From Capsulimonas corticalis (GTDB taxonomy: Bacteria > Armatimonadota > Armatimonadia > Armatimonadales > Capsulimonadaceae), in the NCBI RefSeq assembly GCF_003574315.2, contig NZ_AP025739.1, positions 1,798,001 through 1,862,000 of the forward strand: a DNA stretch of 64,000 bases, read 5' to 3'. Shown here piece by piece: positions 4,838 through 40,756 of this stretch (its first letter is position 1; each line of letters opens with the position of its first letter). The notes below the pieces were generated by a model. It was not told the origin of the DNA, searched no databases, and saw nothing but the letters and a program-made list of their open reading frames with translations. The position numbers and the translations under genes were made by a program.

Positions 4838-5375
4838 CGCCCATACCTTTCGCCAATCGCTCCAGTTGCCGGACGCCGACGACTTCGGCCTTGAGGTCGA
4901 AGGCGGCGGCGCCGATTGTGGCGGCGTAACGCATAAACTGGCAGGCGGTGTTTACGGTAATTTTTTCCGCTGGCGCTTTGTCTTTTTGAGGAGCGACTTC
5001 CGCAAGGCGGCTGATCGCAATCGCCGTCATGAGCTCTTGCCCTTTGATCAGCTTTGAGGCGAATGCGTGCGCGCTTTCCCGGTACTCACGAAGCTCGGCG
5101 GCTTGCGCTTCCTGGGCCGCGGTCCTCGCCTCGTGAGCTTTGTCGACATCAAAGGCTTCGCAACGCTCGACCCAGCGGAATAAAACTGACCAAGGCTCGA
5201 AATTCGCCTTAGTTTTGCCTAAGTTTCGCCCTAGTTTTGAGAGTGAACGGCGAGGTCCCATATCCCGGTAATCACAGAATGCAGCAAACGCTTTAGGCGT
5301 TTCTCCGGGCATTTTCAGCCAGTAATTAACTTCGTCTTCTGGCTCTGGGAGGCTTTGCGCTGAGGATGGATTCAT
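4809..5375 (-). CDS. Phage terminase small subunit-like DNA-binding protein
   Basis: This 188-residue protein begins with a segment typical of small terminases: GETPKAFAAFCDYRDMG, RSLSKLGRNLGKT and a W-containing stretch ending RWVERCEAFD. That pattern is a helix-turn-helix that recognises the packaging site. The middle is a Glu/Ala-rich helix likely to drive oligomerisation. It sits directly upstream of the large terminase and overlaps it. The ATG at 5375 overlaps the ParB-like gene by 50 bases. A later Met (about 5309) would remove the overlap but would cut into the conserved N-terminal segment, so the long form is preferred. Confidence 0.75.
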   Translation of the reverse strand: MNPSSAQSLPEPEDEVNYWLKMPGETPKAFAAFCDYRDMGPRRSLSKLGRNLGKTKANFEPWSVLFRWVERCEAFDVDKAHEARTAAQEAQAAELREYRESAHAFASKLIKGQELMTAIAISRLAEVAPQKDKAPAEKITVNTACQFMRYAATIGAAAFDLKAEVVGVRQLERLAKGMGDASDEETDT

Positions 5376-5952
5376 CGACGGTTATTCTCTGGCTATTCCA
5401 GCCGATATCGGTGATCTTTGCGGAGACATGCTCCTGTTCGTCCTCATCGCTGCAAAGCACGAAGACGCCCAGTTGCTTACGCTTCGGCGATTCTTCGTCT
5501 GGCTCCGGCGCTCCGGGAGGGCTGTCCAGGCCTGCAAGGCGGTTGATTAGATCGTCGAGAAAGTCGCCGTCATATCCTGTCCCCTCCAGGCCTTCATCCG
5601 TCTCCTGCGCGAGCTCGGACAACAATTCCGCCAGGGCCGCTTCATTATCGGTGCCCAGGCGAGAGGTGCGGTTGTCAGCCAGCAAGATGCGGAGCGCCGC
5701 CTCATCATCCACATCCACCCACATGACCGGCAGGCGATCGTATCCGAGGCCCTTCGCCACCTTGTAGCGGTGATTGCCTGCGAGGATAAAGCGCGTGCTG
5801 CGCTGCACGACGAGGGCGCCGAAAAAGCCATTGGCTTTCATGCTGCTCTCGATCGCGCCGTAGTCGCCCTGGTTGACGTTGCGGGGATGCTCGATCAGCC
5901 GGCCGATCTCGACCATGTCGAAGTCGCCGGCGTCGCTGAGATGTCTGGGCAT
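5326..5952 (-). CDS. ParB/sulfiredoxin-fold nuclease-like protein
   Basis: Residues 10-110 form a ParB-like N-terminal domain: IGRLIEHPRNVNQGDY, ANGFFGALVVQ, then FILAGNHRYKVAKGLGY, whose GNHR is the GxxR motif of the fold, and DEAALRILLADNRTSRLG. Phage genomes often place such proteins next to the terminase, where they may nick DNA or pair with a methylase. No DNA methylase is visible here. Residues 110-208 are acidic and end in a short basic tail (PPRARRRS). The start follows the same ACAACGCC leader seen before the neighbouring small ORF. Confidence 0.8.
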   Translation of the reverse strand: MPRHLSDAGDFDMVEIGRLIEHPRNVNQGDYGAIESSMKANGFFGALVVQRSTRFILAGNHRYKVAKGLGYDRLPVMWVDVDDEAALRILLADNRTSRLGTDNEAALAELLSELAQETDEGLEGTGYDGDFLDDLINRLAGLDSPPGAPEPDEESPKRKQLGVFVLCSDEDEQEHVSAKITDIGWNSQRITVDESILSAKPPRARRRS

Positions 5953-6036
5953 GGCGTTGTGTCCGGAGGGGAGTGTTTGCCGGCCGCATCAGTCGATGCT
6001 CCATTGGCCTGTGCGCGGCCGGCAAAGCGTGAAAAG

Positions 6037-6102
6037 TCAGCGATCCAAGGATTTAAGTGGCTCGGCTTCGAGGGCGTGGCGGGCGTTCAGAGTTCGTGTC
6101 AT
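6037..6102 (-). CDS. 21-residue micro-ORF in phage operon
   Basis: The ATG overlaps the stop of the upstream 108-residue gene by four bases (ATGA) and is preceded by CGGAGACAACGCC, a good ribosome site. The peptide starts MTRTLNARHALEAEP and has no known domain. Overlap and ribosome site favour translation, but the short length leaves it uncertain. The 84 bases between its stop and the ParB-like gene contain nothing else I can name. Confidence 0.3.
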   Translation of the reverse strand: MTRTLNARHALEAEPLKSLDR

Positions 6103-6425
6103 GGCGTTGTCTCCGTAGGGGGCGAGTGAGTTTCGGGAACGCCGATGGTGCGCGCCGTCTGGCGGATCCGCACGACGGCGGCCGCGTCCTGCTCCTCGAT
6201 CTCGCCGAGGATCTCCGACATGTCCGCTAGGCACTGGCCGAAGTCGAGCATCTTGAGCAGGACTTCGAGAGGCTCCGTCAAAAACTTCCACTTGAGCAGG
6301 GCGCGATCTTTGGGAGTGATATGCTTGGAGATATCGACGGTATGGGCCGGGAAACTGCTGCGCAGGGCGTTCGCGGACGGGGGACGAACCGGACGCACCG
6401 GGTCCCCTTTGGCGGTTCTGAACAT
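6099..6425 (-). CDS. Phage protein of unknown function (108 aa)
   Basis: The product starts with a Pro/Arg-rich segment and continues with predicted helices (ITPKDRALLKWKFLTEPLEV, then MLDFGQCLADMSEILGEIEE). I recognise no family. It lies between another unknown phage gene and the micro-ORF with ATGA overlap at its end, so it belongs to the same transcript. The helical acidic middle could mediate protein contacts. Confidence 0.6.
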   Translation of the reverse strand: MFRTAKGDPVRPVRPPSANALRSSFPAHTVDISKHITPKDRALLKWKFLTEPLEVLLKMLDFGQCLADMSEILGEIEEQDAAAVVRIRQTARTIGVPETHSPPTETTP

Positions 6426-6437
6426 GGTCAGCGCCTC

Positions 6438-6791
6438 CTACGCGGCCAGGGAGAGCTGCTCGCGGCGCTTGCTGCCGGCATACTCAATATATGGCACGCC
6501 AGAGAGGCCGTAGAGCCGGAAGGAGTCGAGCGGGTATGAACTGCCCAGACGCTTCGACTCTTCCTTCGCGTCCTCGTAGGCTTCCAGAGCAAGGCTTGCC
6601 TCCGTCATCGAGCAGCGCTTGATGATCGTGATGCGGCGCAGCGACATGCCGAGCGAGAAGAGATAGGCAAAGGAATATTCGTCTCCCGGATGGGCGCTGA
6701 TCGTATGGGAAGTGTCGGATCCAATCGTTGCCGGGGCGGCGTCACACGAAGTCGATTTGGGGGCGGCGTGAGCCGCAGACATTGCGAGCAT
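6438..6791 (-). CDS. Phage protein of unknown function (117 aa)
   Basis: The product has a low-complexity N-terminal third and a better-structured remainder (DEYSFAYLFSLGMSLRRITI, then ALEAYEDAKEESKRLGSSYP). No known domain is recognised. It is followed after 12 bases by the next small phage gene and is the first gene downstream of the terminator at about 6.85 kb, so it probably opens this late block. GAGG lies just before the first ATG; a second Met three codons on is equally possible. Confidence 0.55.
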   Translation of the reverse strand: MLAMSAAHAAPKSTSCDAAPATIGSDTSHTISAHPGDEYSFAYLFSLGMSLRRITIIKRCSMTEASLALEAYEDAKEESKRLGSSYPLDSFRLYGLSGVPYIEYAGSKRREQLSLAA

Positions 6792-6832
6792 AAAACCTCA
6801 CTACACGGGGAGACGAACGAAAAAGAAGGCAA

Positions 6833-6868
6833 CAAAAAAACCGCCTCCATCCGGAGAGCGGTTTTTTT
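6833..6868. terminator. Bidirectional rho-independent terminator
   Basis: CCGCCTCC and GGAG-A-GCGG form a GC stem with an ATCC loop, flanked by seven A on one side and seven T on the other. It would stop transcription on either strand. It separates the small HTH genes from the terminase-side block and implies a separate promoter for the latter. Confidence 0.85.
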
Positions 6869-7013
6869 ACGATTTGAGCTTTCAGACCTAGCATGAGCTA
6901 AGTGGTTGCAGAGGCATCCTGCTGTGCCGGAAAGTTGTATGACATCATTATTGCACGGCTTTTTGCAGGCGTCTAGGGGTCAAGGGCTGTATTTTTTCAG
7001 CCCTGAAATCTTT

Positions 7014-7250
7014 TTAGTGTCCATCCGCTTTCTCGATGAACCTTTTCGCCTCGACCAGCGCGCGCGACGCCGTCCCCGCGCTCACCTGGGCGCCGTATTT
7101 GATCTGCTCGATGGACGGCCATTCCCGTTTCACATCGTGCTGTTCGATGCACCAGGCGCGCGCCGTCTCCCAGCGATGCCAGCGTCGAAGGGTTCTGGCG
7201 TCGCGCAGTACGGTCTCGGATAATTGGACAGTCCCAGGAGGAGTCAGCAT
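7014..7250 (-). CDS. Small HTH-like phage protein, paralogue 1
   Basis: This 78-residue protein shares a clear pattern with the 72-residue product at 7416-7634: a Trp-rich basic N-terminal helix, then EWPSIEQIKYGAQVSAGTAS and ALVEAKRFIEK. The segment from IEQI to AGTASRAL looks like a helix-turn-helix (GntR/MarR-like geometry), so DNA binding is likely. The ATG at 7250 lies at the end of an 18-base block that is duplicated just upstream, and AGGTGA within that block serves as the ribosome site. Function is unknown; a small phage regulator is the best guess. Confidence 0.65.
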   Translation of the reverse strand: MLTPPGTVQLSETVLRDARTLRRWHRWETARAWCIEQHDVKREWPSIEQIKYGAQVSAGTASRALVEAKRFIEKADGH

Positions 7251-7295
7251 CGTTCACTGTCACCTATGAAGATCATTATCGTTCACCGTCACCTA
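7249..7295 (-). repeat. Duplicated 18-base ribosome-site block before small HTH gene
   Basis: ATCGTTCACTGTCACCTA (7249-7266) and ATCGTTCACCGTCACCTA (7278-7295) match at 17 of 18 positions. On the minus strand each gives TAGGTGACNGTGAACGAT, containing AGGTGA plus the first bases of a start codon. The distal copy precedes an ATG that opens a 10-codon frame ending in TGA just past the real start. It may be a binding site for the HTH protein or a translational duplication. Confidence 0.55.
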
Positions 7296-7415
7296 AAGAT
7301 TACTCGAAGGCTTGGCGCCCAGCGGGAATGCAAGAGCGCCTTCATCGAACCGGGGGGGTACAAGTCCCCGTATGCGAGATGATTATTGCGCAGATGGATT
7401 TTGTTGTCTAGGGAG

Positions 7416-7634
7416 TTAGCGCACTCTTTTTTCACTATTGAAAAGTTGCCTCCTTGCCGCCTTGAGCGCGTTACACGCCGTACCGGCGCTCACTTCCGTC
7501 TGCCCCGCGATCTGCTTAATCGCGGGCCATTCTCCTTTATCCTGAAAGTAGATCCATGCCCAGTTCGCCGCCTTCAGCGTGCGCTTCCAGCGGCGAGACG
7601 GGCGCGTAGGTTGTGAATTCGGTTCTGCTTTCAT
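7416..7634 (-). CDS. Small HTH-like phage protein, paralogue 2
   Basis: This 72-residue protein is a paralogue of the one at 7014-7250. The shared features are RRWKRTLKAANWAW, GEWPAIKQIAGQTEVSAGTA and ALKAARRQLF. AAAGGAACC lies at good distance before the ATG. The two genes lie head to tail, so they may have arisen by tandem duplication. A role as a DNA-binding regulator is inferred from the helix-turn-helix-like middle and the basic character. Confidence 0.65.
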   Translation of the reverse strand: MKAEPNSQPTRPSRRWKRTLKAANWAWIYFQDKGEWPAIKQIAGQTEVSAGTACNALKAARRQLFNSEKRVR

Positions 7635-7742
7635 AATTGGTTCCTTTCGTGAGCAATTGATTGTCAGTTTGGCAACACTCTTGCAGTGATCAAATATAGC
7701 GGAAAGATTCTACTGCATCCGTCCAATTTGAAGGAAATCACC

Positions 7743-8468
7743 ATGGCGAAATTCTTACCCGTTGCTGCCGTCGCGTTGTCCCTAGCTGCATTCTCCGTCG
7801 CGGCCTATGCCGACCAGACGATCACCTTCACCGGTGTGGTTTATGCCACATTCAACGCACCGCTCGGCGCGAGCCTCGGCGACACGTTTACCGAGTCCTA
7901 CACGATCAAAAACGGCGCAACCAATGCTGGCAACTCGCAGCATGCATCTTACTACAGCCAAGCATCTCACAACCCTAGTGATGTCAGCGTCATCATTCAG
8001 TTCAACAACCATACGATTACAAGCGCCACTCCCGTGTTAAACGACCCAATCACGCAAAACGACGATATCGCCGTGAGTGCGGATAACGTGGATGATCCCA
8101 GTTCCCATGACCATCTCCAAGGCAGTGTAACAATAAAGTCGGGCGGCGTTTTTACGAATATTTCCTCGTACGTCTATCTAAGTGGTCCGAGCAATACCGT
8201 TCCAGGCCCTTTGACATCTATTGCCCCAACCATTACTGGCTCTGGGCTTACGGATATCTCGCAATGGGAATTCACTGATTTCGATTTCGCGGCAACAAAC
8301 GCAAATGGTGGCTCGGGTCAGTTCGGCGGAAAAATCACGAGCATCTCGTCGACCATTACCGGTAGCGCCACCGTCCCGGAGCCCGCTCCCATCGCCGCCT
8401 TCGGAATGGGCCTTCTGGGCGTCTTCGGTCTCGCCCTGCGCAAGCGCAAAACCGTGTCCATGTCCTAA
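7743..8468 (+). CDS. Secreted PEP-CTERM protein inside the prophage
   Basis: The chosen ATG has AAGGA upstream and gives a clean signal peptide (MAKFLPVAAVALSLAAFSVA, cleavage near AYA-DQ). The mature part is rich in Thr, Ser, Asn and Asp with beta-strand character (TITFTGVVYATFNAP). The C-terminus is a full PEP-CTERM sorting signal: VPEPAP, a hydrophobic stretch (MGLLGVFGLAL) and a basic RKRK tail, the target of exosortase. A paralogue with the same ADQTITFTG start lies at 30109-30843. It is on the strand opposite to all neighbouring phage genes, so it has its own promoter and looks like inserted cargo. Confidence 0.85.
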   Translation: MAKFLPVAAVALSLAAFSVAAYADQTITFTGVVYATFNAPLGASLGDTFTESYTIKNGATNAGNSQHASYYSQASHNPSDVSVIIQFNNHTITSATPVLNDPITQNDDIAVSADNVDDPSSHDHLQGSVTIKSGGVFTNISSYVYLSGPSNTVPGPLTSIAPTITGSGLTDISQWEFTDFDFAATNANGGSGQFGGKITSISSTITGSATVPEPAPIAAFGMGLLGVFGLALRKRKTVSMS

Positions 8469-8520
8469 TCCTCTCCTGGCGCTTACCTCAGCGGCTTCGA
8501 TGGAAGCCGCTGAGAAGTTG

Positions 8521-9042
8521 TTAAGCCGCCTTCCTCAACGCAAAGCTCAGCGCGTCTTCCCAGCCAAGAACGGTTCTCGGCACGGCGGAGCCAAGGTTGT
8601 AGTCGATCCCTGGAGTTGGCGCGAGCGGGAAGGTCTCACGAAGATCCGGCCACCGCCGCGCCGCCATCACCGTGGCGATGTACCCAGCAGTGGCCATGCA
8701 GTGATTGATACGTTCGACTACATCTTCCACGCCAAGCTCTAAGAGATGGATCTCAGCCTTCGCATATCCTCCCTTCCCCACACTCTGAACGATCACCGCG
8801 CGGCCTTTACCAAGGTCGGCCATATAGGCGCGGCTGTCTTTGTCGTGTATCCACGGCAAGGCGGGCGGCGGAGGCTCCAGCAATCCGCGGCGACCTGCGA
8901 ACGACGCCAGCGCCAGGCGCAATACGGCGGTTCGGCTCAAGTTGTTACGCGTCGCGTACTCGTCTATTGCGAACACGACGCCGTAGGATACCGGGCCGCC
9001 TACAACTTGGTCGGGAGCACTTCCAAAAGGAATATCGGCCAT
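8521..9042 (-). CDS. Phage protein with possible ribbon-helix-helix segment
   Basis: The N-terminal 50 residues read like a ribbon-helix-helix: a short strand VSYGVVFAIDEYA followed by helices TRNNLSRTAVLRLALASFA. The rest (PWIHDKDSRAYMADLGKGRA and later) has no family I know. The ATG overlaps the stop of the upstream gene (TGATG) behind a GGAGGTGGAG ribosome site. A DNA-binding regulatory role is possible for the first part; the C-terminal two thirds are unassigned. Confidence 0.6.
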   Translation of the reverse strand: MADIPFGSAPDQVVGGPVSYGVVFAIDEYATRNNLSRTAVLRLALASFAGRRGLLEPPPPALPWIHDKDSRAYMADLGKGRAVIVQSVGKGGYAKAEIHLLELGVEDVVERINHCMATAGYIATVMAARRWPDLRETFPLAPTPGIDYNLGSAVPRTVLGWEDALSFALRKAA

Positions 9043-10007
9043 CACTCCACCTCCGCATTGGTGTCGATTTCCCCGATGACGGCAATGGCGCGTAGTTGCC
9101 TCACGGAAAGAAAAGGCAGTCCCAGGTATTGGCGAAGCAACTTCGCGAGCCGGATCTGCTCGCGAATCTCAGGAGTCGGTTTGGTGATGCTGTACAGCTC
9201 ACCGCATTCCGTGCAGCCCTTGGGACACGGTTCGGGGTTGAGATTGCAGAGTAGACGCCCCGTCTCAATCGAGTAGCGGAACGCAAGCCAGGGATCGACG
9301 CTGTCACAGATCGTTTCGGAGGTCACGGAGTAGATCGTATCGATCTTATACGATTTGTCGCCGTCCTCATGATGCACGACAGCGATCTCGTCTCCAGCCT
9401 TGAGCGAACGCCGCCAGGTCAGTTCCTCTTCGGCCCTCGGCGCGGGCTCGGACTTGACCAGGCCGCAAAGGTGCGCGATCGCGTGAAGCTCGTCATCATC
9501 CAGCTTCTCCATATCGACCTTGCGGATGGCGCTGATCATCTCATGGCGGCGCAGCAGACGCTTCCCCTCGGCGGTGGGGCGCACGAGGCGGAAGGCGGCC
9601 TTTCCGCGCCGGCGCTCAATGCCCGTCTCGATATCGAATGCGAAGCCGCCGGCGTAGATGCGGCCGCGCTCAATCCGGTCGATGGAGCGGAAGGATTGCC
9701 ACCACTCGTTGATGTCCATGATCTCGAAGGCGATCTCGTCGCCCTTGCGCAGGGAGCGCCGCCACGTCAGGTCTGGGTCGGAGGGCGCGGGCGGGGCTCC
9801 CAACAGGGCAGGGGAGCCGGCGGTCACGATCTGCTCTTCTACAGCCCCAGCGACCACCAGGGACGGCCTGTATAGGGGTTTGGCGGCGGCCGGAGCTTCC
9901 GTGGGGCTATCGAGGCTCACGCGCGTATGGGAGAGAACACACGTCGTGCGCAGCGTCTTGGTTGGCTGGTATTGGTTCGGCGTGGTTGTTAGGTTCATCA
10001 TATTCAT
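9042..10007 (-). CDS. Phage protein with two tandem homologous domains
   Basis: This 321-residue protein contains an internal duplication. Each unit starts (D/E)LTWRRSL(R/K)xGDEIA, continues with a short beta region ending in FxxDIETG or FRYSIETG, and closes with a helix carrying RR or RQ and an IAHLCGL or IAVIGEI end. The units cover roughly residues 80-190 and 193-321. The second unit has four Cys (PCPKGCTECGE) that could bind zinc. No known family is recognised. Its ATG overlaps the preceding stop by four bases, so it is co-translated with the gene at 10004-10369. Confidence 0.65.
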   Translation of the reverse strand: MNMMNLTTTPNQYQPTKTLRTTCVLSHTRVSLDSPTEAPAAAKPLYRPSLVVAGAVEEQIVTAGSPALLGAPPAPSDPDLTWRRSLRKGDEIAFEIMDINEWWQSFRSIDRIERGRIYAGGFAFDIETGIERRRGKAAFRLVRPTAEGKRLLRRHEMISAIRKVDMEKLDDDELHAIAHLCGLVKSEPAPRAEEELTWRRSLKAGDEIAVVHHEDGDKSYKIDTIYSVTSETICDSVDPWLAFRYSIETGRLLCNLNPEPCPKGCTECGELYSITKPTPEIREQIRLAKLLRQYLGLPFLSVRQLRAIAVIGEIDTNAEVE

Positions 10008-10369
10008 CCCATCGCTCCTAATTCGTATTTCCAGGTGTCGACGCAGTGGTCGGCAAACTCATCGTCGGGGTCTTCGTAGCCGCTGAGCGTCACGGGACTG
10101 AGGTTCAGGCAGACCGCTTCCAACTGGGCGAGCGTCTGCCGGCACTTCTGCGTCATCTGTGCTCTCGTCAGTTTGGCGTGGACTTCTCCGGTGCGCAGGA
10201 AGTCGACCTGGCGTCCGCAGGAGCGGTTCAGACGTCTCGCTTCTCCCAGGAGATCGGCGCCCGGTAATTGTGTTGGGTTTGTTGGGCCATTTCCCGTATA
10301 AACAGGTGGCTGGTAAGTGTTGGTGCGCATGGCTTCCAGAACTTTTAAAGGTGTCATAATAGTAGACAT
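10004..10369 (-). CDS. Phage protein of unknown function (121 aa)
   Basis: The product starts MSTIMTPLKVLEAMRTN and has a helical, Arg/Cys-containing middle (EARRLNRSCGRQVDFLRTGE) and an acidic C-terminus (GYEDPDDEFADHCVDTWKYE). No domain is recognised. It is the first gene after the non-coding gap with three copies of a 12-base box, so it may be the promoter-proximal member of a three-gene set with 9042-10007 and 8521-9042. Confidence 0.6.
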   Translation of the reverse strand: MSTIMTPLKVLEAMRTNTYQPPVYTGNGPTNPTQLPGADLLGEARRLNRSCGRQVDFLRTGEVHAKLTRAQMTQKCRQTLAQLEAVCLNLSPVTLSGYEDPDDEFADHCVDTWKYELGAMG

Positions 10370-10415
10370 AAGAAATAAATAGTTTAAAATACGTATCTAG
10401 AGAATCGTCAAACAT

Positions 10416-10524
10416 CCCAACATAATTCGGCAAACGGGAATAATCTGGGGCTTCCCTTCTTATTTTTTCGTTGAATTATGTTGGGTGCGTTTTCCAACAA
10501 TCTCCAACGTATCCCAACATAATT
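10416..10524. promoter_or_regulatory. Three copies of box CCCAACATAATT upstream of small phage operon
   Basis: Identical 12-base boxes lie at 10416-10427 (direct), 10474-10485 (inverted) and 10513-10524 (direct). The last two can pair as a hairpin. They sit in the AT-rich gap between the primase stop and the start at 10369, so operator, silencer or replication iterons are all possible. The pattern is seen directly; the role is inferred. Confidence 0.55.
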
Positions 10525-10535
10525 GACCGGCTTCT

Positions 10536-13199
10536 CTATGCGGCCTGAAGGTGTGGGCGTCCCGCCGAGACCACACACGGGTTGACCGCGTAGTGGGCTT
10601 TCGGGCGAGCGCCGGGGCCTTCTCTTTTTGGCGGCATTTCGAGGCGGATGTACGCGTCCTCCATCAGGCGTGTGAGCGCGAGTTCGATCCGCTCCTTGGA
10701 CTCGGGGCTCAGCGCCTGCCGGATCTGGCGCATGGTGAAGAAGCGCAGATCCTTGCGCTTGATCCATTCGATGATGCGCTTGGCGAGCGCGACGATCGTG
10801 TCGGAGCGCATCAGACCGAAGGCGGCGACGGCGTGCGGGATGCAGTAGGTTCCGATCTCCCAAGCCTCGGCCATGGTGTCGCCGCTGATCGGGGTTTCCC
10901 AGGGCAGGCGGTTGTCGGCGCCGCCGACGTGCTTGACCATATGTAGGTTGGCGGCGATCCGTGCGACGTTACCGGCGAGCTTGGAAGACCACGCGAGCAT
11001 GGCGGCGAGATCCTGGCCGGGACGCTGCCGGTCGTTGATGTCGTTGTAGTAGTGCTTATGGACGGCGATCGCTTCGTCGTCCATGGTGAGCAGGAAGCGC
11101 TTGTGGGGCGCGTCCTCGGTAACCGCCTTGGGAAGATCGTGGAGCGCCAGGATCGTCTGCGTGTAGGCGTACTCGCCGGCGTTCGTTCCGCCTTCGTCCC
11201 GGTATGGCCGCTCTCCCGCGAGGTTCGGAGCGACGGCGTAGAGGAAGCGCGCGAGGAAGCCGTTGTGGTGCAGCCGCTCGTCTTCGGCGAGGGACTGCAT
11301 GATCTCCGGCTGGACGGTCAGACCGATGGTCAGCGTCGGCGCCAGGATATAACTATTGCCTTTGCCGACGCGGTCGTTGGTGGCGTAGTCGCCGCTCCAC
11401 GCCTTGAGGTAGATATCCATGTTGGGGCTGCTGTTCTTGCTCGCGTAGAGTCCCTTGATGATGCTGAAGAGGCCGCCTTCGGTATCCAGGTTGGCGATGC
11501 AGTTATCTTCCTGCTCGGCGAGCTTCGTGAACAGCGCCTCCATGGTGATATCCTGCACCAGCATGCGCGGCAGCGCCTTCGGCTCCTTCATGTCTTCGAT
11601 CAACCCGAGGATCTCGTCGTCGATTATTCGCCGGCCGGACGCCTGGGCGTTGGCGGACTTGGTTTGCAGGGCGGTCAGCCGCTTCTTGTCGGTCTCGTAC
11701 TTGGTGACGGCGGATGTGTGCGCTCCCTCGAAACGCTGACGCAGCTCCCGCTCGATCTGAACGATCGGCGCGGCCATACGCTTCATGGCGGGGCTTTTGC
11801 CAGATCCTGCCACGGAGGCGACGACCATGTACAAGTTGACGGTCTCGATGTGCCTCTTGGACCGGGCGCCGATCTGGACCTGAACGCGGCGCGAGTTCAG
11901 GGCTGATAGAACACACAGCGCCAGCATGCCCGTGATGTCAAGCGGAACCTGGACATCGTCGGCGACTTCCTTCGCATAGCGCGCCAATACCGGCGGCAAG
12001 GCGTGCAGCGGGAAGGGGGGGAGTTTGTCCTCGCCGAGCGGCAAGGGACATTCCCATTCTTCTTCCGAAGCCACCGGCTCGGGGACGATTCCGGAGCGGC
12101 GGCGGCTTTCGAACGCGCCTGCGCCGGAGATCAGCTGGTCCACCCGGCGCGACACAGGTCCGTTGCCTGTGGGATTATTCGGCGCGCCTGGATGCGGGGC
12201 CGGCGCGTCATAGGCGTCCGGCTCGTACATCAGCCGCAGATCCTGCCATGTTCGGCCGTGGCAGCCGTTGTGTCGGCAGCCGGCGGCAACGGCGCCGCTG
12301 GCGAACTGGATGATGAAGGCGGCGTCATTGGTGTGATCGCCGTTCCATGGGCATGGGTTCAGGATCCACTTACGGCCGCCGCCGGAGTACGGCCCCGTCT
12401 TCTCCACAGGGAGGTTGTGATCCGCAATCCATTGCTCCAGATCGAATGCGGCCGAATTGCGCGGTGGCGCGGCGGGCGTGGCGGGAAGCGTCGCCGCGAG
12501 CTGTTGCAGCAGTTCCCTCGAAACCGGCGCCAGCGTTTCGGGAACGCGATGGATGCGCGCCCGCCGGTGAGGCCGGTCGGGGGTGCTGTCGCCTTTGGTG
12601 GAGACCGTGCCGTACAGTTTGCAGATGCGCGAGCTGTTGAACGTGGTGTTGTCGACTCCCACGACGTCGTCGCCGAACAGCAGATCCAGAGCTTCCAGGC
12701 ACTGGGAGAGCAGATCGCGCGTCTCGTTGTCGTTGGGCAAGTCGAGGCGGTACAGCAGATGCCAGCCGTTGCCGCTGTCGGCGATGACGGGCTCGGTAAA
12801 GCCCTTCCTGTGAAGGTAATCGCGCACAATCTTGGCGCGGTCCCGCGCGGCGTCGTGCTCGGCATTCGTGGAGGAGATCCCCTTGGGCCGGACCGGGTCG
12901 AAATCGACCATAAGCCAGCGCCGACGGACGATGTCCTTGTCGGACGTCGTCGCCTCCGGACACGCCTCCAGGCGGTTGCAGATGCGCCCAAGCACGCTCG
13001 GGTTGACGGTGTTCAGCACGGAGTACACCGCGCATTTTCCGTCGAACCGGCGCACGTCGTCGGCGGCCTTGGCGAAGTCGTCGTAGTATCCGGCCGTCGT
13101 CTTCTTTGAAGACTCCAGCACACGAATCTCGATGACTTCGCCCGGCTTGTGCAGGACCGAGAGCCATTGTGAGATTGACGCGGGGTCAAACTCAGACAT
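10536..13199 (-). CDS. Phage primase with DUF3987 helicase-like domain
   Basis: An ATG preceded by GGAGGAG is chosen at 13199, giving 887 residues; an upstream Met would add 24 unconvincing residues. The N-terminal 260 residues look like a primase-polymerase fold: DFDPVRP at about 99-105 with metal-binding Asp, DSGNGWHLLY at 141-150 and ICKLYGT. Next is a Cys/His segment (CRHNGCHG), then a DUF3987 (YfjI-type) domain with a P-loop-like VASVAGSGKSP at about residue 460. The C-terminal part has a winged-helix look (MRQIRQALSPESKERIELAL). It probably primes and unwinds phage DNA. It overlaps the gene upstream by eight bases. Confidence 0.85.
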   Translation of the reverse strand: MSEFDPASISQWLSVLHKPGEVIEIRVLESSKKTTAGYYDDFAKAADDVRRFDGKCAVYSVLNTVNPSVLGRICNRLEACPEATTSDKDIVRRRWLMVDFDPVRPKGISSTNAEHDAARDRAKIVRDYLHRKGFTEPVIADSGNGWHLLYRLDLPNDNETRDLLSQCLEALDLLFGDDVVGVDNTTFNSSRICKLYGTVSTKGDSTPDRPHRRARIHRVPETLAPVSRELLQQLAATLPATPAAPPRNSAAFDLEQWIADHNLPVEKTGPYSGGGRKWILNPCPWNGDHTNDAAFIIQFASGAVAAGCRHNGCHGRTWQDLRLMYEPDAYDAPAPHPGAPNNPTGNGPVSRRVDQLISGAGAFESRRRSGIVPEPVASEEEWECPLPLGEDKLPPFPLHALPPVLARYAKEVADDVQVPLDITGMLALCVLSALNSRRVQVQIGARSKRHIETVNLYMVVASVAGSGKSPAMKRMAAPIVQIERELRQRFEGAHTSAVTKYETDKKRLTALQTKSANAQASGRRIIDDEILGLIEDMKEPKALPRMLVQDITMEALFTKLAEQEDNCIANLDTEGGLFSIIKGLYASKNSSPNMDIYLKAWSGDYATNDRVGKGNSYILAPTLTIGLTVQPEIMQSLAEDERLHHNGFLARFLYAVAPNLAGERPYRDEGGTNAGEYAYTQTILALHDLPKAVTEDAPHKRFLLTMDDEAIAVHKHYYNDINDRQRPGQDLAAMLAWSSKLAGNVARIAANLHMVKHVGGADNRLPWETPISGDTMAEAWEIGTYCIPHAVAAFGLMRSDTIVALAKRIIEWIKRKDLRFFTMRQIRQALSPESKERIELALTRLMEDAYIRLEMPPKREGPGARPKAHYAVNPCVVSAGRPHLQAA

Positions 13200-13902
13200 T
13201 AGCTCCTCCTGTTGCTGCTTTCCAGGAGCGATTGCGGATGATTTGGAAGAAGTCGCTGGCGTTGCCGACACAGGTGTTATAGTATTTGTTAACCCCAGGC
13301 AGGTTCAAGACGAACCACAAATCCGAGCGTCCGGCGCCGTGGCTGGAATATGCCTCGGTCTTCGTTTCGGCCTGATCATCAACTTCAAATGAAACGATGA
13401 TCACGATCGGCTTACCAATCGCGGACGCGTAGCCGATCTCGGCGAGCGTTCCGTAGCAACTCAGATCGTCGATGTAGGCGAAGACGAAATCGGCCTTTTT
13501 GATCTGCTCCAGGCAGCGGTGAACGACAACGCCCTCCTCGATATAAACGCCGTTGCGCCCCTTGATGCCGCAGCCGTGCGTAGCGGGAGCCGATTCGCGC
13601 TGAAAGTAGGAATCGCCGTAAATGGACTGGTCATCGTGCGTTCCGTCGATGCATGTCGGCCCCGCATAGAAGACTCGCGTCCCCGCAAGGTCCAGGACCA
13701 TTCGCCCGTCGTTGTTCGCCTCCATCACATCCTTGTGAAAGAGCTTGCATCGATAATCGTCGCCAGGCCAGCGGACCTTGCCGGCGAAGTATACGAACAC
13801 GTTCTCGGCGGAAGGATAGACGAGCCAGTCTTTCATGGCCTCGCGGAGTGTTTGCGGCTTATCCAGCAGTTCGTCAATTGAGAGTTTCTTGGCTTCAGAC
13901 AT
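13192..13902 (-). CDS. Nucleoside 2-deoxyribosyltransferase-like protein
   Basis: The ATG at 13902 has CGGAGAAC upstream and gives 236 residues. VFVYFAGKVRWPGDDYR resembles the first strand and turn of the deoxyribosyltransferase fold. Later, KKADFVFAYIDDLSCYGTLAEIGYASAIGKPIVIIV (given here as the region 150-190) contains the family's acidic residue and the GTLAEIGYA helix. Such phage proteins trim or swap nucleobases, or act on NAD-like signals. The gene ends eight bases inside the primase gene, so the two are coupled. The exact substrate cannot be read from sequence. Confidence 0.7.
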   Translation of the reverse strand: MSEAKKLSIDELLDKPQTLREAMKDWLVYPSAENVFVYFAGKVRWPGDDYRCKLFHKDVMEANNDGRMVLDLAGTRVFYAGPTCIDGTHDDQSIYGDSYFQRESAPATHGCGIKGRNGVYIEEGVVVHRCLEQIKKADFVFAYIDDLSCYGTLAEIGYASAIGKPIVIIVSFEVDDQAETKTEAYSSHGAGRSDLWFVLNLPGVNKYYNTCVGNASDFFQIIRNRSWKAATGGANV

Positions 13903-20902: not shown

Positions 20903-20946
20903 TGGCCGCCTTCCTGCCGATAGTACTATCGGCAGGAAGGCGGCCA
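20903..20946. repeat. 44-base perfect palindrome without loop
   Basis: Two 22-base arms (left starts TGGCCGCCTTCCTGCCGATA, right begins ACTATCGGCAGGAAGGCGGC) meet at a TAGT/ACTA centre with no spacer. There is no T-run, so it is not a normal terminator. It lies in a gap of about 500 bases (20765-21271) with no credible gene. Confidence 0.9.
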
Positions 20947-21601: not shown

Positions 21602-21700
21602 CCGTTCAGTTGCTTTCTTGTTTTGGTCGTTTCTTCAACCGACGCATTAATCATTAGTGTTCCCGCGTGCAGAAAAAGCGTCGCGCATTTGGGGCAATTG

Positions 21701-21740
21701 GAAAATATTTCTGTGCACGGTTGCGGATTTGCTGTAAAAT
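21701..21740 (+). promoter_or_regulatory. Repeated promoter block, copy A
   Basis: GAAAATATTTC is followed by TGTGCA (21712-21717), a 17-base spacer and TAAAAT (21735-21740). The block is shared with 39981-40021 (B), 33944-33983 (C) and 32484-32522 (D), with the -35-like and -10-like hexamers at identical spacing. It precedes the gene at 21792. Flanking similarity with copy B extends about 50 bases upstream. Confidence 0.65.
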
Positions 21741-21791
21741 GGGTGAAAGCGGGAGGAGCTTCTAAGGGAAGCTGACGGTTACGGAGGCGAT

Positions 21792-23799: not shown

Positions 23800-23965
23800 A
23801 GAGGCGGCGACCGCCAGGACGAGCCCCAGCTAGGACGCGGAGAAGAACGTGGCGCTGGCGATGCGGGCCGGGTTTGAGGCGTGGCGGAGGTATGTCGCGG
23901 CGGCCGGCGGCAAGCCTGATCCCGATGTGCGGGATCGGACGCCGGCGATATTCTTTGGAGCGTAG
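23800..23965 (+). pseudogene. Decayed copy of the AWGRYV small gene
   Basis: The frame reads KNVALAMRAGFEAWRRYVAA, then GGKPDPDVRDRTPAIFFGA and a stop. It matches the intact gene at 40409-40627 nearly to the end. The N-terminal half is missing or broken by an in-frame stop (CCCAGCTAGGAC). No start or ribosome site is left, so it is a relic. It is one of four copies in the accessory region. Confidence 0.7.
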
Positions 23966-24038
23966 AGGAGGCTTTCGTAAGTCCAAAACGATTTTACGAA
24001 AGCCATTTTCTATTTATTATCTTCTGGCACCCACTCTG

Positions 24039-24271: not shown

Positions 24272-24856
24272 TTAGAAGCCAATACGCTTCAAAAAATGAT
24301 CAGCCAGAGTCCGCAAAACGATTGGCAGTACTGTCTTTGCGATCCATCGGAAGCAGGAATACACCTTCTGTTGTAAAAGAGGCTTCAACGAATTCCAAAT
24401 TTGGTCCCGCCGCCATTTCTGGGCCGCCGCATATCCAGTCGTCACGACCTGGATGAAGTAACGTTCTTCCAGGGCGTCAAGCATATCTTCGTGACTGGCT
24501 TTACTTTGAAGTATCGACAGCAGACGAAGCCAACACTTTGTTATCCTGCTATCTTTCGGCGTAGCATAGCCTTTGCTCGCCAGGAAAATATTAAACAAGA
24601 GGAAGAGAAAGGCAAATACCGGATGTTGCTCCATCGCTTCTCTGAGACGTCTCTCCCGTTGGGCATCCATCGCGATGGAAGCTGGGATCCAGAAGATTAC
24701 AGCTAGGACAAATGTCGTGATGATTGTCACAATGACCGGAGAGTTTTCCCTCTCAATCGCTCGGTAGACGATTTCAACTCCGCTCGCGCATGCGACAGCG
24801 TAACAAACCAATAGAGCGTTTAAATGAACATTGATGTTAGCAGTTCTTACCCTCAC
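24272..24856 (-). CDS. Membrane protein in PadR operon
   Basis: The 194-residue protein has hydrophobic segments at about 12-32 (LNALLVCYAVACASGVEIVY), 43-65 (IVTIITTFVLAVIFWIPASI) and 80-95 (VFAFLFLLFNIFLAS), then a soluble helical half with DALEERYFIQVVTTGYAAAQ. Its ATG overlaps the PadR stop by four bases, so both proteins come from one message. PadR regulators commonly sit next to the membrane protein they control. Function is unknown. Confidence 0.65.
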   Translation of the reverse strand: MRVRTANINVHLNALLVCYAVACASGVEIVYRAIERENSPVIVTIITTFVLAVIFWIPASIAMDAQRERRLREAMEQHPVFAFLFLLFNIFLASKGYATPKDSRITKCWLRLLSILQSKASHEDMLDALEERYFIQVVTTGYAAAQKWRRDQIWNSLKPLLQQKVYSCFRWIAKTVLPIVLRTLADHFLKRIGF

Positions 24857-25218
24857 GAACGACCTCCCATAATTGAAACTCCATTAGCTATAGCGCTTGA
24901 GTGAGCAGGTGCTCCAGCAGATAGCCTCTGCCGAATAGCTTGAGCTTCGTTGAGCGCCTGTTCTCCTGTGGCCTCGATCTGGAAATATCGTTTGGCGCGA
25001 CCTCCGCGCTCAGGAGTAGCTTCCCCCTGCCGCGAACTGATGAACCCCTTTTGTTCCAAGCGCTCTAGCGTAGCGTAGATCGACCCGACCGACACGCCAC
25101 GTTGGGCATGCTCTTCCACAGTCTGCCAGATGGATACGCCGTAGGCGCTCGTTTCAAGGCGCGCCACCGCCAAGAGTACAATCTCCTCGAATTCGCCCAG
25201 AAATGTTCTCTGTGTCAT
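24853..25218 (-). CDS. PadR-family transcription regulator
   Basis: The ATG at 25218 follows GGAGGTTGCCAAT and is preferred over a Met five codons earlier. Residues 1-90 form the PadR winged helix: FLGEFEEIVLLAVARL, SAYGVSIWQTVEEHA, VSVGSIYATLERLEQKGF and the wing SSRQGEATPERGGRAKRYF. The protein ends with a short Ala/Ser-rich tail rather than the usual long dimerisation helix. It probably represses its own two-gene operon through the boxes just upstream. Confidence 0.9.
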   Translation of the reverse strand: MTQRTFLGEFEEIVLLAVARLETSAYGVSIWQTVEEHAQRGVSVGSIYATLERLEQKGFISSRQGEATPERGGRAKRYFQIEATGEQALNEAQAIRQRLSAGAPAHSSAIANGVSIMGGRS

Positions 25219-25231
25219 ATTGGCAACCTCC

Positions 25232-25286
25232 ATATCTTCGCGTTATTAGAGTATATACCCGATATCTTCGCAAAAAGCGAAGATAT
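25232..25286. promoter_or_regulatory. Likely PadR operator: three ATATCTTCGC boxes
   Basis: ATATCTTCGC occurs at 25232-25241 and 25262-25271 (direct, 30 bases apart) and as its complement GCGAAGATAT at 25277-25286. The last two form a perfect 25-base inverted repeat with AAAAA in the middle. The group lies directly upstream of the PadR start, the usual place for an autoregulatory operator. Confidence 0.65.
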
Positions 25287-25496
25287 GGGAGTGCGTCGAT
25301 CATTTTTTTTGCTCCAACTCGTAGTGACTTCGTTGAAAGCGGCACCGTCGCATAGAAACGGTATCCGGAAGTTGCCGGTGGCATGCCCGATCGATGTTCG
25401 GTCCCGCCACATCGGGGTTAAGCTCGCCGGCGGCGTTCTTTGGGCGTGATCTTCCCAAGGCCCAACTCGAAACGGTCTAACGAACTAAGTCTCGTT

Positions 25497-26390
25497 GTAA
25501 CGCACGAACGTTACAGCGGGGCTTTTCTGTCTCTGCCCACGGTGCCCGATGACGGTCCAAAATAAGCGTTTCCTTAAACACGGGTTTAAGGAAACGCTTA
25601 TTTACAGGAATACGGGAATACAGGTTCCTATAAATACAGTCTGACACCCATACAGGCCGTACATGCATCCATACGGAAAAATATACAGAAAATTTTAAAG
25701 AAAATGGCCCCGGAATTTATTACCAGAAATATTACCGCGAATATGACAAGTCATATGACTAGCTGACTTTCTTACCAGTGCGCTGGTGCACTCTGCGCCT
25801 TTGCTCCTTCCTGCCATCACCGCCAAACAAACAAGCTTTAAAGTTTGTTTGTTTGTTAATCCGTTAATTTGTTTACAAACTGACACGTCAGCAAGCCCGC
25901 AAGTCAGCAGGCCCGCTGGCTGATCAGCAGACAACGCCTCTCCACTGCACGCACGCGAATATGCGAGTATTATTGCGCATATGCGAATATTCGCACGTTC
26001 GGCGGCGCGCGGCGAGTAGTATATACTACCTACCTATCCTACTACCTACGCTGCAAACTTGTAGCGAGGCTTGCTAGATAGCAAGATAGATAGATAGGAA
26101 ACTATTTTCGGATTTTCCATCGGAGTTTCCGAAGCTTGCTCACTTGCAGCATCCATCACTCCATCATTTGAGTAAATGAGTACGCAAGTGCGTACGCACT
26201 TACGCACGCACGCGCTTGCGGGAGTGCTCCTGCGGATGCGGGAGGGAGTGCGGGATTTTTTGCGCATTTATACGCTATTAGCATAGGATTTCGCGTTCTG
26301 AGAACTCGGCATCCTATCGTCTATCGCGTAAGCTACTTACACTAAGTAGCTTACGTTAAGTAGCTTCGACAATATTGCTAATTAGCAATA
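25497..26390. repeat. Dense array of different palindromes and hairpins, non-coding
   Basis: About 18 distinct inverted repeats follow one another with few bases between. Perfect loop-free ones lie at 25749-25760, 25919-25928, 25976-25985, 25983-25994, 26016-26029, 26186-26201 (16 bases) and 26373-26390 (18 bases). Hairpins lie at 25497-25514, 25560-25603 (20-base arms, ACGG loop), 25741-25756, 25824-25851, 25868-25879, 25880-25891, 26070-26085, 26120-26132, 26165-26178, 26180-26195, 26295-26305 and 26327-26355 (13-base arms). Arm words often recur as partial direct copies next to the hairpin (for example TAAGTAGCTT at 26357). The hairpins do not share a consensus. Short minus-strand frames across it are low-complexity and not believed. 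It lies between divergent genes. Confidence 0.85.
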
Positions 26391-26482
26391 AATAGATTCA
26401 AAAATCGCGCAGGATTCGACTATGGGGTATCGCGAATTGCTAAAGACAAACCGCTAAGACAATCCGTTTGCGCGGTAATTCG

Positions 26483-26974
26483 ATGCCAAAGGTAAGCTCT
26501 CCGAACATGAGAATCAGCGTTACAATCGACGAGACACACTACACGCCCAAATCCTATCGAGACTGGCTGAACGTACACGCTGTTGCGGAAAAGGGATTCG
26601 CCTTCGACGAGGAGGTGAAGAAGATAAGATCGATCGCTGATAGAATTCCCAGATCGGAAACGTCGCCCGACAGTAGGCAAGACGGTGATTCGCCCCAACT
26701 TGCGATGTTGATGGAAAAGACTGCACGCGCCATTCCGATGCCCGCCGATGGTGAGAAGGCGTTCCAGTACATAGAGCGCGCGTTGACAGCCAGCCGCCGG
26801 GCCATGACTCTGAACGAGATCATGACAGAGATCATCCGAGCCGGTTGGAAGTCCAACGCCGTGAAGCCCCAAGGAACGGTCAAAACCGCGCTAAAGGGCT
26901 ACCCACACTTATTCGTTCAGATCAGTGGTAAGTGGCATCTGGTGGAATGGAACGGGACGCCGCCGAAGGGGTAA
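26483..26974 (+). CDS. Protein with C-terminal HARE-HTH-like winged helix
   Basis: The 163-residue product ends with AMTLNEIMTEIIRAGWKS, then VKPQGTVKTALKGYPHLFVQ and ISGKWHLVEW. This order fits the HARE-HTH fold (helix, helix, winged strand pair), which is often joined to restriction or DNA-modification proteins and is thought to read chromatin or modified DNA. The N-terminal part has a YRDWLNVHAVAEKGFAFDEE segment and a disordered middle. Start choice is uncertain (TTG 26468, ATG 26483 or ATG 26507). It is the first gene after the palindrome array. Confidence 0.6.
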   Translation: MPKVSSPNMRISVTIDETHYTPKSYRDWLNVHAVAEKGFAFDEEVKKIRSIADRIPRSETSPDSRQDGDSPQLAMLMEKTARAIPMPADGEKAFQYIERALTASRRAMTLNEIMTEIIRAGWKSNAVKPQGTVKTALKGYPHLFVQISGKWHLVEWNGTPPKG

Positions 26975-29639: not shown

Positions 29640-29693
29640 GCGCAGCCGGGCCGCCGATAGCCTTCAAGATGAGTCATCGTCTGAGGAGAAGTC

Positions 29694-29909
29694 ATGACTG
29701 AACTGAAAACCGCGCTCGCGAGCCTGGACCACCGGACACGGACCTTCGAGGAAGCGACGGCCGACGCCAGGATCAGCGAGGAGGAGGAGCACGACGCAAC
29801 GCTCGCGGTAAAGGCCGGGCGGGAAGCCTGGGGGCGATACGTGGGGGCGGCTGATGTAAGCAAGCGCGGCAGTGCCTGGAGAAGTTGGGGAAGCGCTCAG
29901 ACATGCTGA
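29694..29909 (+). CDS. AWGRYV small protein, copy with altered C-terminus
   Basis: The 71-residue product shares with the copy at 40409 the segments TALASLDHRTRTFEEATADA, RISEEEEHDATLAVKAGREA and WGRYVGAA, then diverges after residue 53. The intact copy continues with PDPDVRDRTPAAFFGA, which is lost here. GAGGAGAAGTC lies before the ATG. The charged helical body suggests a coiled coil. The function is unknown. Confidence 0.6.
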   Translation: MTELKTALASLDHRTRTFEEATADARISEEEEHDATLAVKAGREAWGRYVGAADVSKRGSAWRSWGSAQTC

Positions 29910-30971: not shown

Positions 30972-31060
30972 CGGGGGGGGAGCCTGGGGGCAGTACGTGG
31001 CGGCGTTCTTCGGGGAGTGAGCTTCCTGGGCGCTCCAGCGGGACGCCTGGGCGGCGCGGA
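30972..31060 (+). pseudogene. Relic of the AWGRYV small gene
   Basis: GGGGGCAGTACGTGGCGGCG and TTCTTCGGGGAGTGA match the 3' end of the 40409 gene, and similarity continues past the stop (TTCCTGGGCGCTCCAGC versus TTCCCAGGCGGTCCAGC). Only the last fragment of the coding part remains. It has no start. Confidence 0.55.
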
Positions 31061-31123
31061 GACAGTATTCGGTCATCGTACAGAAACAGCAGAAATACGA
31101 GATTTTAGGGAGAGGTTAGGGAA

Positions 31124-39893: not shown

Positions 39894-39980
39894 AGTAACC
39901 ACCCTCCCACGTTGAAGTGTCGTCTCTGACTCATTAGTGTCTCGTCGTGCGGGAAAAGCGTCGCGCGTTTGGGGCAATTG

Positions 39981-40021
39981 GAAAAATATTTCTGTGCAGG
40001 GCTGTGGATTTGCTGTAGAAT
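39981..40021 (+). promoter_or_regulatory. Repeated promoter block, copy B
   Basis: GAAAAATATTTC, TGTGCA (39993-39998), 17 bases and TAGAAT (40016-40021). It and copy A share the surrounding words TCATTAGTGT and GCGTCGCGC...TTTGGGGCAATTG, so about 100 bases were duplicated together. Confidence 0.65.
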
Positions 40022-40051
40022 GGCGGAAAAGATGCAAAGGATCGGGTAACC

Positions 40052-40372
40052 ATGGAGATGAGTAATTCGGGAACAGTCACCGTACAAATCGATTGTGAGG
40101 TATGCGGCGGCGTCGGCGGGCGCACGCTCCACACGACGGGAGACTTTATCCCCTGCGGAGCGTGTCGAGGAACCAAGTTTCGTCCTGAAGAGATCAACTT
40201 AGGAAACTATCTCGCCGACATGTCTGCGAAAATCAGCATCCTCACCGCAAGGGTTATATCTCTTGAGACGGATTTAGCTTCCACGCGGCAAGAACTTGCG
40301 GGCCTGGATGCCACTCTTGTCAGATCATGGAGAGAAGTTGATCACTTAGAGGACGAAATGTCTACCACCTAA
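40052..40372 (+). CDS. DnaJ-type zinc-motif protein with coiled coil
   Basis: The 106-residue protein has one CxxCxG pair unit, CEVCGGVGGRT and CGACRGTKF, as in one DnaJ zinc centre or the small ribosomal-like zinc knuckles. Residues 55-100 form a coiled coil (ISILTARVISLETDLASTRQ, ELAGLDATLVRSWREVDHLE). It may be a scaffold or chaperone partner. Driven by promoter block B. Confidence 0.55.
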   Translation: MEMSNSGTVTVQIDCEVCGGVGGRTLHTTGDFIPCGACRGTKFRPEEINLGNYLADMSAKISILTARVISLETDLASTRQELAGLDATLVRSWREVDHLEDEMSTT

Positions 40373-40408
40373 AGCTCAATTTGATCGGTAGGTCGGAATG
40401 GAGAAATC

Positions 40409-40627
40409 ATGGCCGAAGCACAAACCGCGCTCGCGAACCTGGATCACTGGACACAGACCTTCGAGAACGTGACGGCCGACGCCCGGATCAGCGAGAAGGC
40501 GGAGCACGACGTAGCGCTCGTGGTGAAGGCCGGACGGGAAGCATGGGGGCGGTACGTGGCGGCGACCGGCGGCGAGCCTGACCCCGATGTGCGCGACCGG
40601 ACGCCGGCGGCGTTCTTTGGGGCGTGA
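40409..40627 (+). CDS. AWGRYV small protein, intact copy
   Basis: The 72-residue product reads AEAQTALANLDHWTQTFENV, TADARISEKAEHDVALVVKA, GREAWGRYVAATGGEPDP and DVRDRTPAAFFGA. The first 50 residues are a charged helix; the end is Pro/Asp-rich. GGAGAAATC lies before the ATG. Three other copies (29694 altered, 23800 and 30972 decayed) lie in the accessory region. No known family is recognised. Confidence 0.65.
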   Translation: MAEAQTALANLDHWTQTFENVTADARISEKAEHDVALVVKAGREAWGRYVAATGGEPDPDVRDRTPAAFFGA

Positions 40628-40756
40628 GCCTTCCCAGGCGGTCCAGCAGAACGCCTGCGCCAGCGGAGAGGATGTTTTGGCGGTGGGCGGGATAGAGTCA
40701 AGGCAGCAACGCTCGCCAGGCGCTTCTCGCGCTGTCAATCAAGGGCATCCAATATC

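Follow-up and report, generated by a model that had tools for sequence, protein, structure and literature searches.

The array studied here lies at positions 25497-26390 of a 64,000-nucleotide stretch of the Capsulimonas corticalis chromosome, hereafter the window, whose base 1 corresponds to base 1,798,001 of the single-contig genome (7,645,051 bp); the array is thus found at about 1.82 Mb. This tract of roughly 0.7-0.9 kb separates two divergent genes and forms their shared upstream region, with a PadR-family regulator gene on its left and, on its right, a gene with a weak HARE-HTH match (Table 1). No relatives of the right neighbour were found among 60 related genomes or in viral contigs. 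No open reading frame of 80 amino acids lies wholly inside the array, which bears out the non-coding setting given in an earlier reading made from the letters of the window (the sequence-only reading). The GC content is about 0.50 over 17-43 kb of the window compared to about 0.62 outside, which places the array within a low-GC island, where it is adjoined by prophage-type genes (terminase, ParB-like, primase-helicase). The terminator-like hairpin at its left edge matches a genus mate at 88% over 42 bp; terminator-like sites were no more frequent in the scan than in shuffled sequences.

Table 1. Features of the array and its surroundings, in window coordinates unless marked as genome coordinates.
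Feature	Position	Strand	Remarks
PadR-family regulator gene, left neighbour	24853-25233	-	PF03551, E 1.5e-12
3'-end remnant of a small gene	25396-25461		fuller relative at 40566-40639
Terminator-like hairpin, left edge, outside the lattice	25485-25526	+	terminator scan hit 25487-25524
Four-base-lattice mosaic, core of the array	25550-26250		identity at multiples of 4 versus other lags; along-sequence track
Perfect hairpin	25560-25603		20-nt arms, ACGG loop
Loop-free palindromes	25749-25760, 25982-25995, 26016-26029, 26186-26201, 26373-26390		12, 14, 14, 16 and 18 nt
CAAA / GTTT inverted pair	25824-25857		includes a 15-nt pure GTTT run, 25843-25857
GTCAGCA.. direct copies	25884-25930		spacings 16 and 20
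GCGAATAT / ATATGCGA direct and inverted copies	25955-26029		palindromes 25982-25995 and 26016-26029
CTAC run	26026-26049		11 nt pure, plus imperfect copies
TAGA/AGAT run and CTTGCTA hairpin	26070-26098		14 nt pure, 26084-26097
Strongest lattice	26164-26254		GTAC/GCAC/GTGC/GCAA/TTAC words; overlapping palindromes 26180-26207; ACGC run 26202-26213; GCGGGAG copies at spacings 12-32
Hairpin tail without four-base lattice	26251-26393		lattice -0.05; repeat spacing 14 (TRF period 14)
Stems of the tail	26283-26317, 26327-26355, 26330-26366, 26373-26390
Right neighbour gene, weak HARE-HTH match	26468-26974	+	20.5 bits, below the family cut-off of 25.9
Decayed copies of a small-gene module	21651-21742, 23827-23967, 29685-29849, 30999-31062, 39931-40639; genome 73038-73234

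The sequence-only reading had described about 18 different palindromes and hairpins, a fair estimate: we counted 13 perfect stems with arms of at least 6 nt, plus further imperfect ones. The five loop-free palindromes of at least 12 nt that it listed were all recovered with small coordinate shifts (0.34 ± 0.67 in dinucleotide shuffles). Its two hairpins, with 20-nt arms around an ACGG loop and 13-nt arms around a CAC loop (26327-26355), are exact, as are the partial direct copies it had noticed beside the hairpins: GCGAATAT (25955, 25983), TAAGTAGCTT (26343, 26357) and AGATAGATAGATAG (26084). Perfect stems with arms of at least 7 nt cover 20.0% of the array, compared to 0.9% (sd 1.4) in shuffles, so that by the control of shuffled sequences the array is real. 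It is also the densest 900-bp window for such arms in 1.66 Mb of its own genome; other palindrome-rich places in the genome are ordinary, being dispersed repeat families, terminators or operator pairs.

Copying in the array is strictly local and occurs in both orientations. Pairs of identical 7-mers at most 60 bp apart numbered 50 in direct and 77 in inverted orientation, against 4 and 9 in shuffles, and pairs more than 60 bp apart were at the shuffle level; both excesses end at about 60-80 bp. Among 3711 windows of 894 bp, the array alone combined the direct and the inverted excess. It is single-copy: the only further hits in the genome search were self-complementary hits of the array itself, blastn found no copy in phages or plasmids, and the exact 20-nt arm of the hairpin at 25560-25603 was not found in viral contigs. 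The locus is absent from 60 relatives, compared at one genome per species, where the matched sequence was limited to the 42-bp terminator-like hairpin, and no arrays were found beside PadR relatives in other genomes. The array differs from CRISPR, REP and dispersed repeats in that no shared repeat unit recurs within it or in the genome. The claim of the sequence-only reading that each hairpin has its own word is correct for the words themselves but not for their spacing, which is common to the region from 25550 to 26250.

This common spacing is a four-base lattice, the main feature missed by the sequence-only reading. Autocorrelation revealed an excess of base identity at lags 4, 8, 12 and so on up to 60 and at no other lags (z of 4.6, 8.2, 7.9 and 5.3 at lags 4, 8, 12 and 16), fading by about 80 bp. 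Base composition by phase does not account for the effect, the period of 4 is the best among periods 2-13, and 30 of the 33 spacings between short local direct repeats are multiples of four. The direct lattice, calculated over lags 4-24 as multiples of four minus the others, was 0.123 compared to 0.000 ± 0.008 in 500 shuffles (maximum 0.022). A lattice holds for inverted copies as well, where a single class of i+j modulo 4 reaches a z of 12.3 and two others are depleted, and the inverted lattice was 0.086 compared to 0.007 ± 0.0035 (n = 500). The observed values thus exceed those of the shuffles by 15 sd for the direct and 22 sd for the inverted lattice. Identity at lag 4 (0.34) was lower than at lags 8 and 12 (0.40 and 0.39). 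A token model, in which the array would consist of blocks of four with fixed borders, was discarded, as no phase is clearly favoured by the points where repeats start or end: this is a lattice without borders. Our literature search for four-base periodicity or palindrome clusters found nothing to the point.

The array was then placed against genomic background in a comparison that covered 2.46 of the 7.65 Mb, for the lattice as for tetranucleotide runs. With the lattice scored in 800-bp windows, the array reached z = 14.5 and the runner-up 4.5. After masking of pure runs it was still far outside the distribution of its own genome on both lattice measures (0.133 and 0.120, with sd of 0.011 and 0.005). 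In all the unselected sequence scored (2.46 Mb of the own genome, 0.13 Mb of the genus mate and the PadR loci), only the array attained such a score. The array also carries pure tetranucleotide runs of five words (CAAA, GTTT, CTAC, AGAT and ACGC), 11-15 nt in length. Five runs of at least 11 nt compare with 0.04 expected from the 114 present in the 2.46 Mb, and two of the six runs of at least 14 nt in that sequence, including the sole 15-nt run, are in the array. Tandem Repeats Finder (TRF) returned short rows only, with periods of 4, 8, 12 and 14 and scores of 30-48, where the usual threshold is 50.

Four mutational schemes were simulated: unrestricted local copying of random DNA, copying of random DNA in multiples of four only, substitution alone, and tetranucleotide repeats subjected to copying and substitution. 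Local copying on random DNA matched the observed 7-mer cover but gave a mean lattice of 0.00 direct and 0.01 inverted. Restricting the copies to multiples of four on random DNA raised the mean lattice to only 0.03-0.05, and substitution alone on tetranucleotide repeats left almost no local 7-mer copies; the former scheme was rejected. Tetranucleotide repeats modified by slippage, fold-back and substitution came near most of the observed statistics when strands paired through anchors of 4-6 nt and the tract underwent about 150 copy events together with 600 substitutions. With 5-nt anchors, the simulated lattice was 0.113 direct and 0.081 inverted (observed 0.123 and 0.086), the range 0.071 (0.061), the 7-mer cover 0.30 and 0.34 (0.34 and 0.33) and the diversity 0.77 (0.82). 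This agreement has to be read with the knowledge that the simulation has several free parameters and start words partly taken from the array, and that it depends on start words able to pair with each other, arbitrary words giving a poorer fit and a weaker inverted lattice. The simulations also placed lag 4 at or above lags 8 and 12, unlike the observed order.

On this basis, we propose, with a probability of about two in three, that the array derives from one or several tetranucleotide repeats, now worn, whose sequence has been reshaped by slippage, by template switching through fold-back and by point mutation. Two things are inferred here: a tetranucleotide repeat as the ancestor, and slippage and fold-back as the copying events. 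In a four-base repeat, slipped or folded-back strands would re-pair only in steps of four, so that later duplications, deletions and reverse-complement copies would all keep the grid. Replication slippage would produce the direct copies, and the hairpins would arise from fold-back or strand-switch copying, in which the polymerase briefly follows its own or the opposite strand. Point mutation would have altered the words until no pure run above 15 nt remained. The hairpins would then be by-products of a mutation process rather than a selected chain of structures, and the tail at 26251-26393, which has hairpins and no lattice, would require fold-back copying alone. Since lag 4 is weaker than lags 8 and 12, unlike in the simulations, the ancestral unit may have been of 8 or 12 nt, itself built of tetramers.

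The same discrepancy leaves room for an active four-base step, in which something copies or reads DNA four bases at a time in both orientations and so makes or keeps the lattice. Such a step could come from an element or enzyme writing direct and reverse-complement blocks on a grid, or from a structure selected for the step. We consider this reading very unlikely. Fold-back or template-switch copying was already among the ideas of the sequence-only reading, and the local excess of inverted and direct copies retains it as one ingredient; by itself it is insufficient, given that copying on random DNA gives no lattice. For the same reason we find it unlikely that repeated fold-back and slippage acted at a mutation hot spot in ordinary DNA, with no repeat ancestor. 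That process would explain the short-range excess of both kinds of copies and reproduces the 7-mer cover on random DNA, and the tail looks like its product, but it is contradicted over 25550-26250 by the near-zero simulated lattice and leaves the pure runs of five different words unexplained.

A selected element was also envisaged, namely hairpins in series that would be recognised as RNA or, at the DNA level, by proteins, and whose four-base step would be functional. Such an element could regulate the divergent PadR and HARE-like genes or be transcribed into a structured RNA. The position between divergent genes, operator-sized dimensions of several palindromes and a very strong predicted folding (z of -11.6 and -11.3 on the two strands) speak for such an element. 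The folding excess is, however, equal on the two strands, which points to copying at the DNA level; 8 of the 13 perfect stems have loops of 0 or 2 nt; no Rfam match, no promoter-like site and no conservation in 60 relatives were found; and the excess of direct copies is not predicted by selection for hairpins. Selection of this kind therefore appears improbable. In particular, the suggestion that the array encodes a product made of a chain of hairpins gained no support, as the folding is not strand-specific, the array belongs to no known RNA family and no promoter-like site was detected. The tract may nonetheless have a role as a spacer or switch upstream of the two genes. One such role would be that of a former phase-variation (contingency) tract, whose length changes once switched the PadR or the HARE-like gene and which has since decayed; this would add a role to the worn-repeat explanation and leave the proposed origin unchanged. 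In Haemophilus influenzae, variable genes are associated with tetranucleotide tracts (PMC4700210), the array is upstream of both genes and it holds the only 15-nt run in 2.46 Mb. Against this, no remaining run is longer than 15 nt, the tract is not inside a reading frame and switching was seen in none of the tests made, so that we give a contingency role little credence.

Streptomyces-type telomeres also carry tightly packed, different palindromes (PMC4513846), and the array could in principle be the captured end of a linear replicon. Measured in the same way, the SAP1 telomere has loops mostly of 3-8 nt and no loop-free hairpin, and its local excess over 894 bp is weak (z of 3.0 direct and 1.9 inverted, compared to 11.1 and 9.8 for the array). 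Moreover, telomeres are terminal, while the array is internal to a single-contig chromosome, and no terminal-protein genes or replicon remnant were seen among the island genes scanned. A telomeric origin is thus extremely improbable.

If the array is a worn repeat, its closest known counterparts are imperfect or compound tetranucleotide microsatellites and worn, 'cryptically simple' DNA, with which it shares the four-base step, the pure runs and a repetition that fades with distance. It differs from them in several ways: none of its words is predominant, neighbouring tetramers are mostly unlike, identity is higher at lags 8 and 12 than at lag 4, and copies in reverse complement also keep the lattice; furthermore, the lattice extends over about 700 bp in a genome otherwise almost devoid of tetranucleotide runs. 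Short-range template-switch or quasipalindrome mutations likewise create reverse-complement copies of nearby sequence (PMC8794818, PMC7954356, PMC7202029), and template switching is known to generate perfect hairpins (PMC8794818), as in the array; but these are single scattered events, whereas the array piles up many of them at one locus and on a four-base grid. Insertions templated by fold-back at DNA breaks resemble the array in their very short inverted copies (about 5-34 bp at yeast repair junctions, PMC11724301), and differ in occurring at single junctions and showing no four-base step. REP/BIME, MITE and other dispersed palindromic repeats are also non-coding palindromes between genes, but they recur genome-wide, and such families are present here, while the array is single-copy.

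Similarity searches cannot find relatives of such regions, because their words differ. We therefore scored the lattice in about 3.2 Mb of viral contigs chosen for their tetranucleotide runs, a selection that shows that mosaics exist and not how frequent they are. After masking of pure runs, both lattices were present in contigs L519, L462, L391, L413, L480 and L342. In L391 (4440-4670) and L519 (4300-4440), pure runs pass into lattice-keeping mosaics with palindromes, and in L342 (about 6000-6150) they stand beside one. These mosaics do not reach the length or the diversity of the array, but they show what an intermediate between it and a clean repeat would be expected to look like. The earlier statement that no described class fits is weakened accordingly, as worn (imperfect, compound) tetranucleotide repeats do fit and shorter mosaics occur in other contigs.

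The array is best read as an ordinary mutation process in an unusually long and visible form. Its components are already known; what is unusual is their combination, the length of the array and its rarity in this genome. A seemingly patternless, hairpin-dense region can thus hide a periodic order, and identity and complementarity by lag modulo 4 offer a simple test to tell a worn short repeat from a hairpin array under selection. Function need not follow when a bacterial intergenic region has many palindromes and a strong predicted fold. Should strain data agree, the array would visibly document the joint action of slippage and template switching in a bacterial chromosome.

Several other repeats and phage-related features were noted in the course of this work. 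Just upstream of padR, at window 25236-25288, ATATCTTCGC is repeated, one copy being an inverted repeat with an AAAAA loop; these repeats are likely a self-regulation operator of padR. The same island contains, at window 20903-20946, a perfect loop-free palindrome with 22-nt arms (GGCCGCCTTCCTGCCGATAG..). The prophage-type genes, on the minus strand at window 3110-13271, comprise the large and small terminase subunits, a ParB-like gene and a DUF3987 primase-helicase, and window 17054 is the exact start of the IMG/VR record UViG_2831870349_000004 of this genome, which extends leftward from there. The helicase has a second copy at genome 61819-64503, with 89% identity to the prophage-type one, and the iteron-like repeats beside this copy (several copies of TCCAACATAAT at genome 61651-61850) may represent a phage replication origin. 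Decayed partial copies of a small-gene module, consisting of a protein starting with MEMSNSGT followed by a small gene ending in TPAAFFGA, are strewn over the island (Table 1); the genus mate has a fuller copy, directly preceded by the terminator-like hairpin found at the left edge of the array. Among dispersed repeats, one element is about 130 bp long, has GCGAATGAATTCGC at its ends, contains nested palindromes and occurs at genome 5655626-5655764 and 1923402-1923541, and another family, CCCCCTCTCCCAATTTTGGGAGAGGGGG, at genome 3623990, 3725605 and 3915844.
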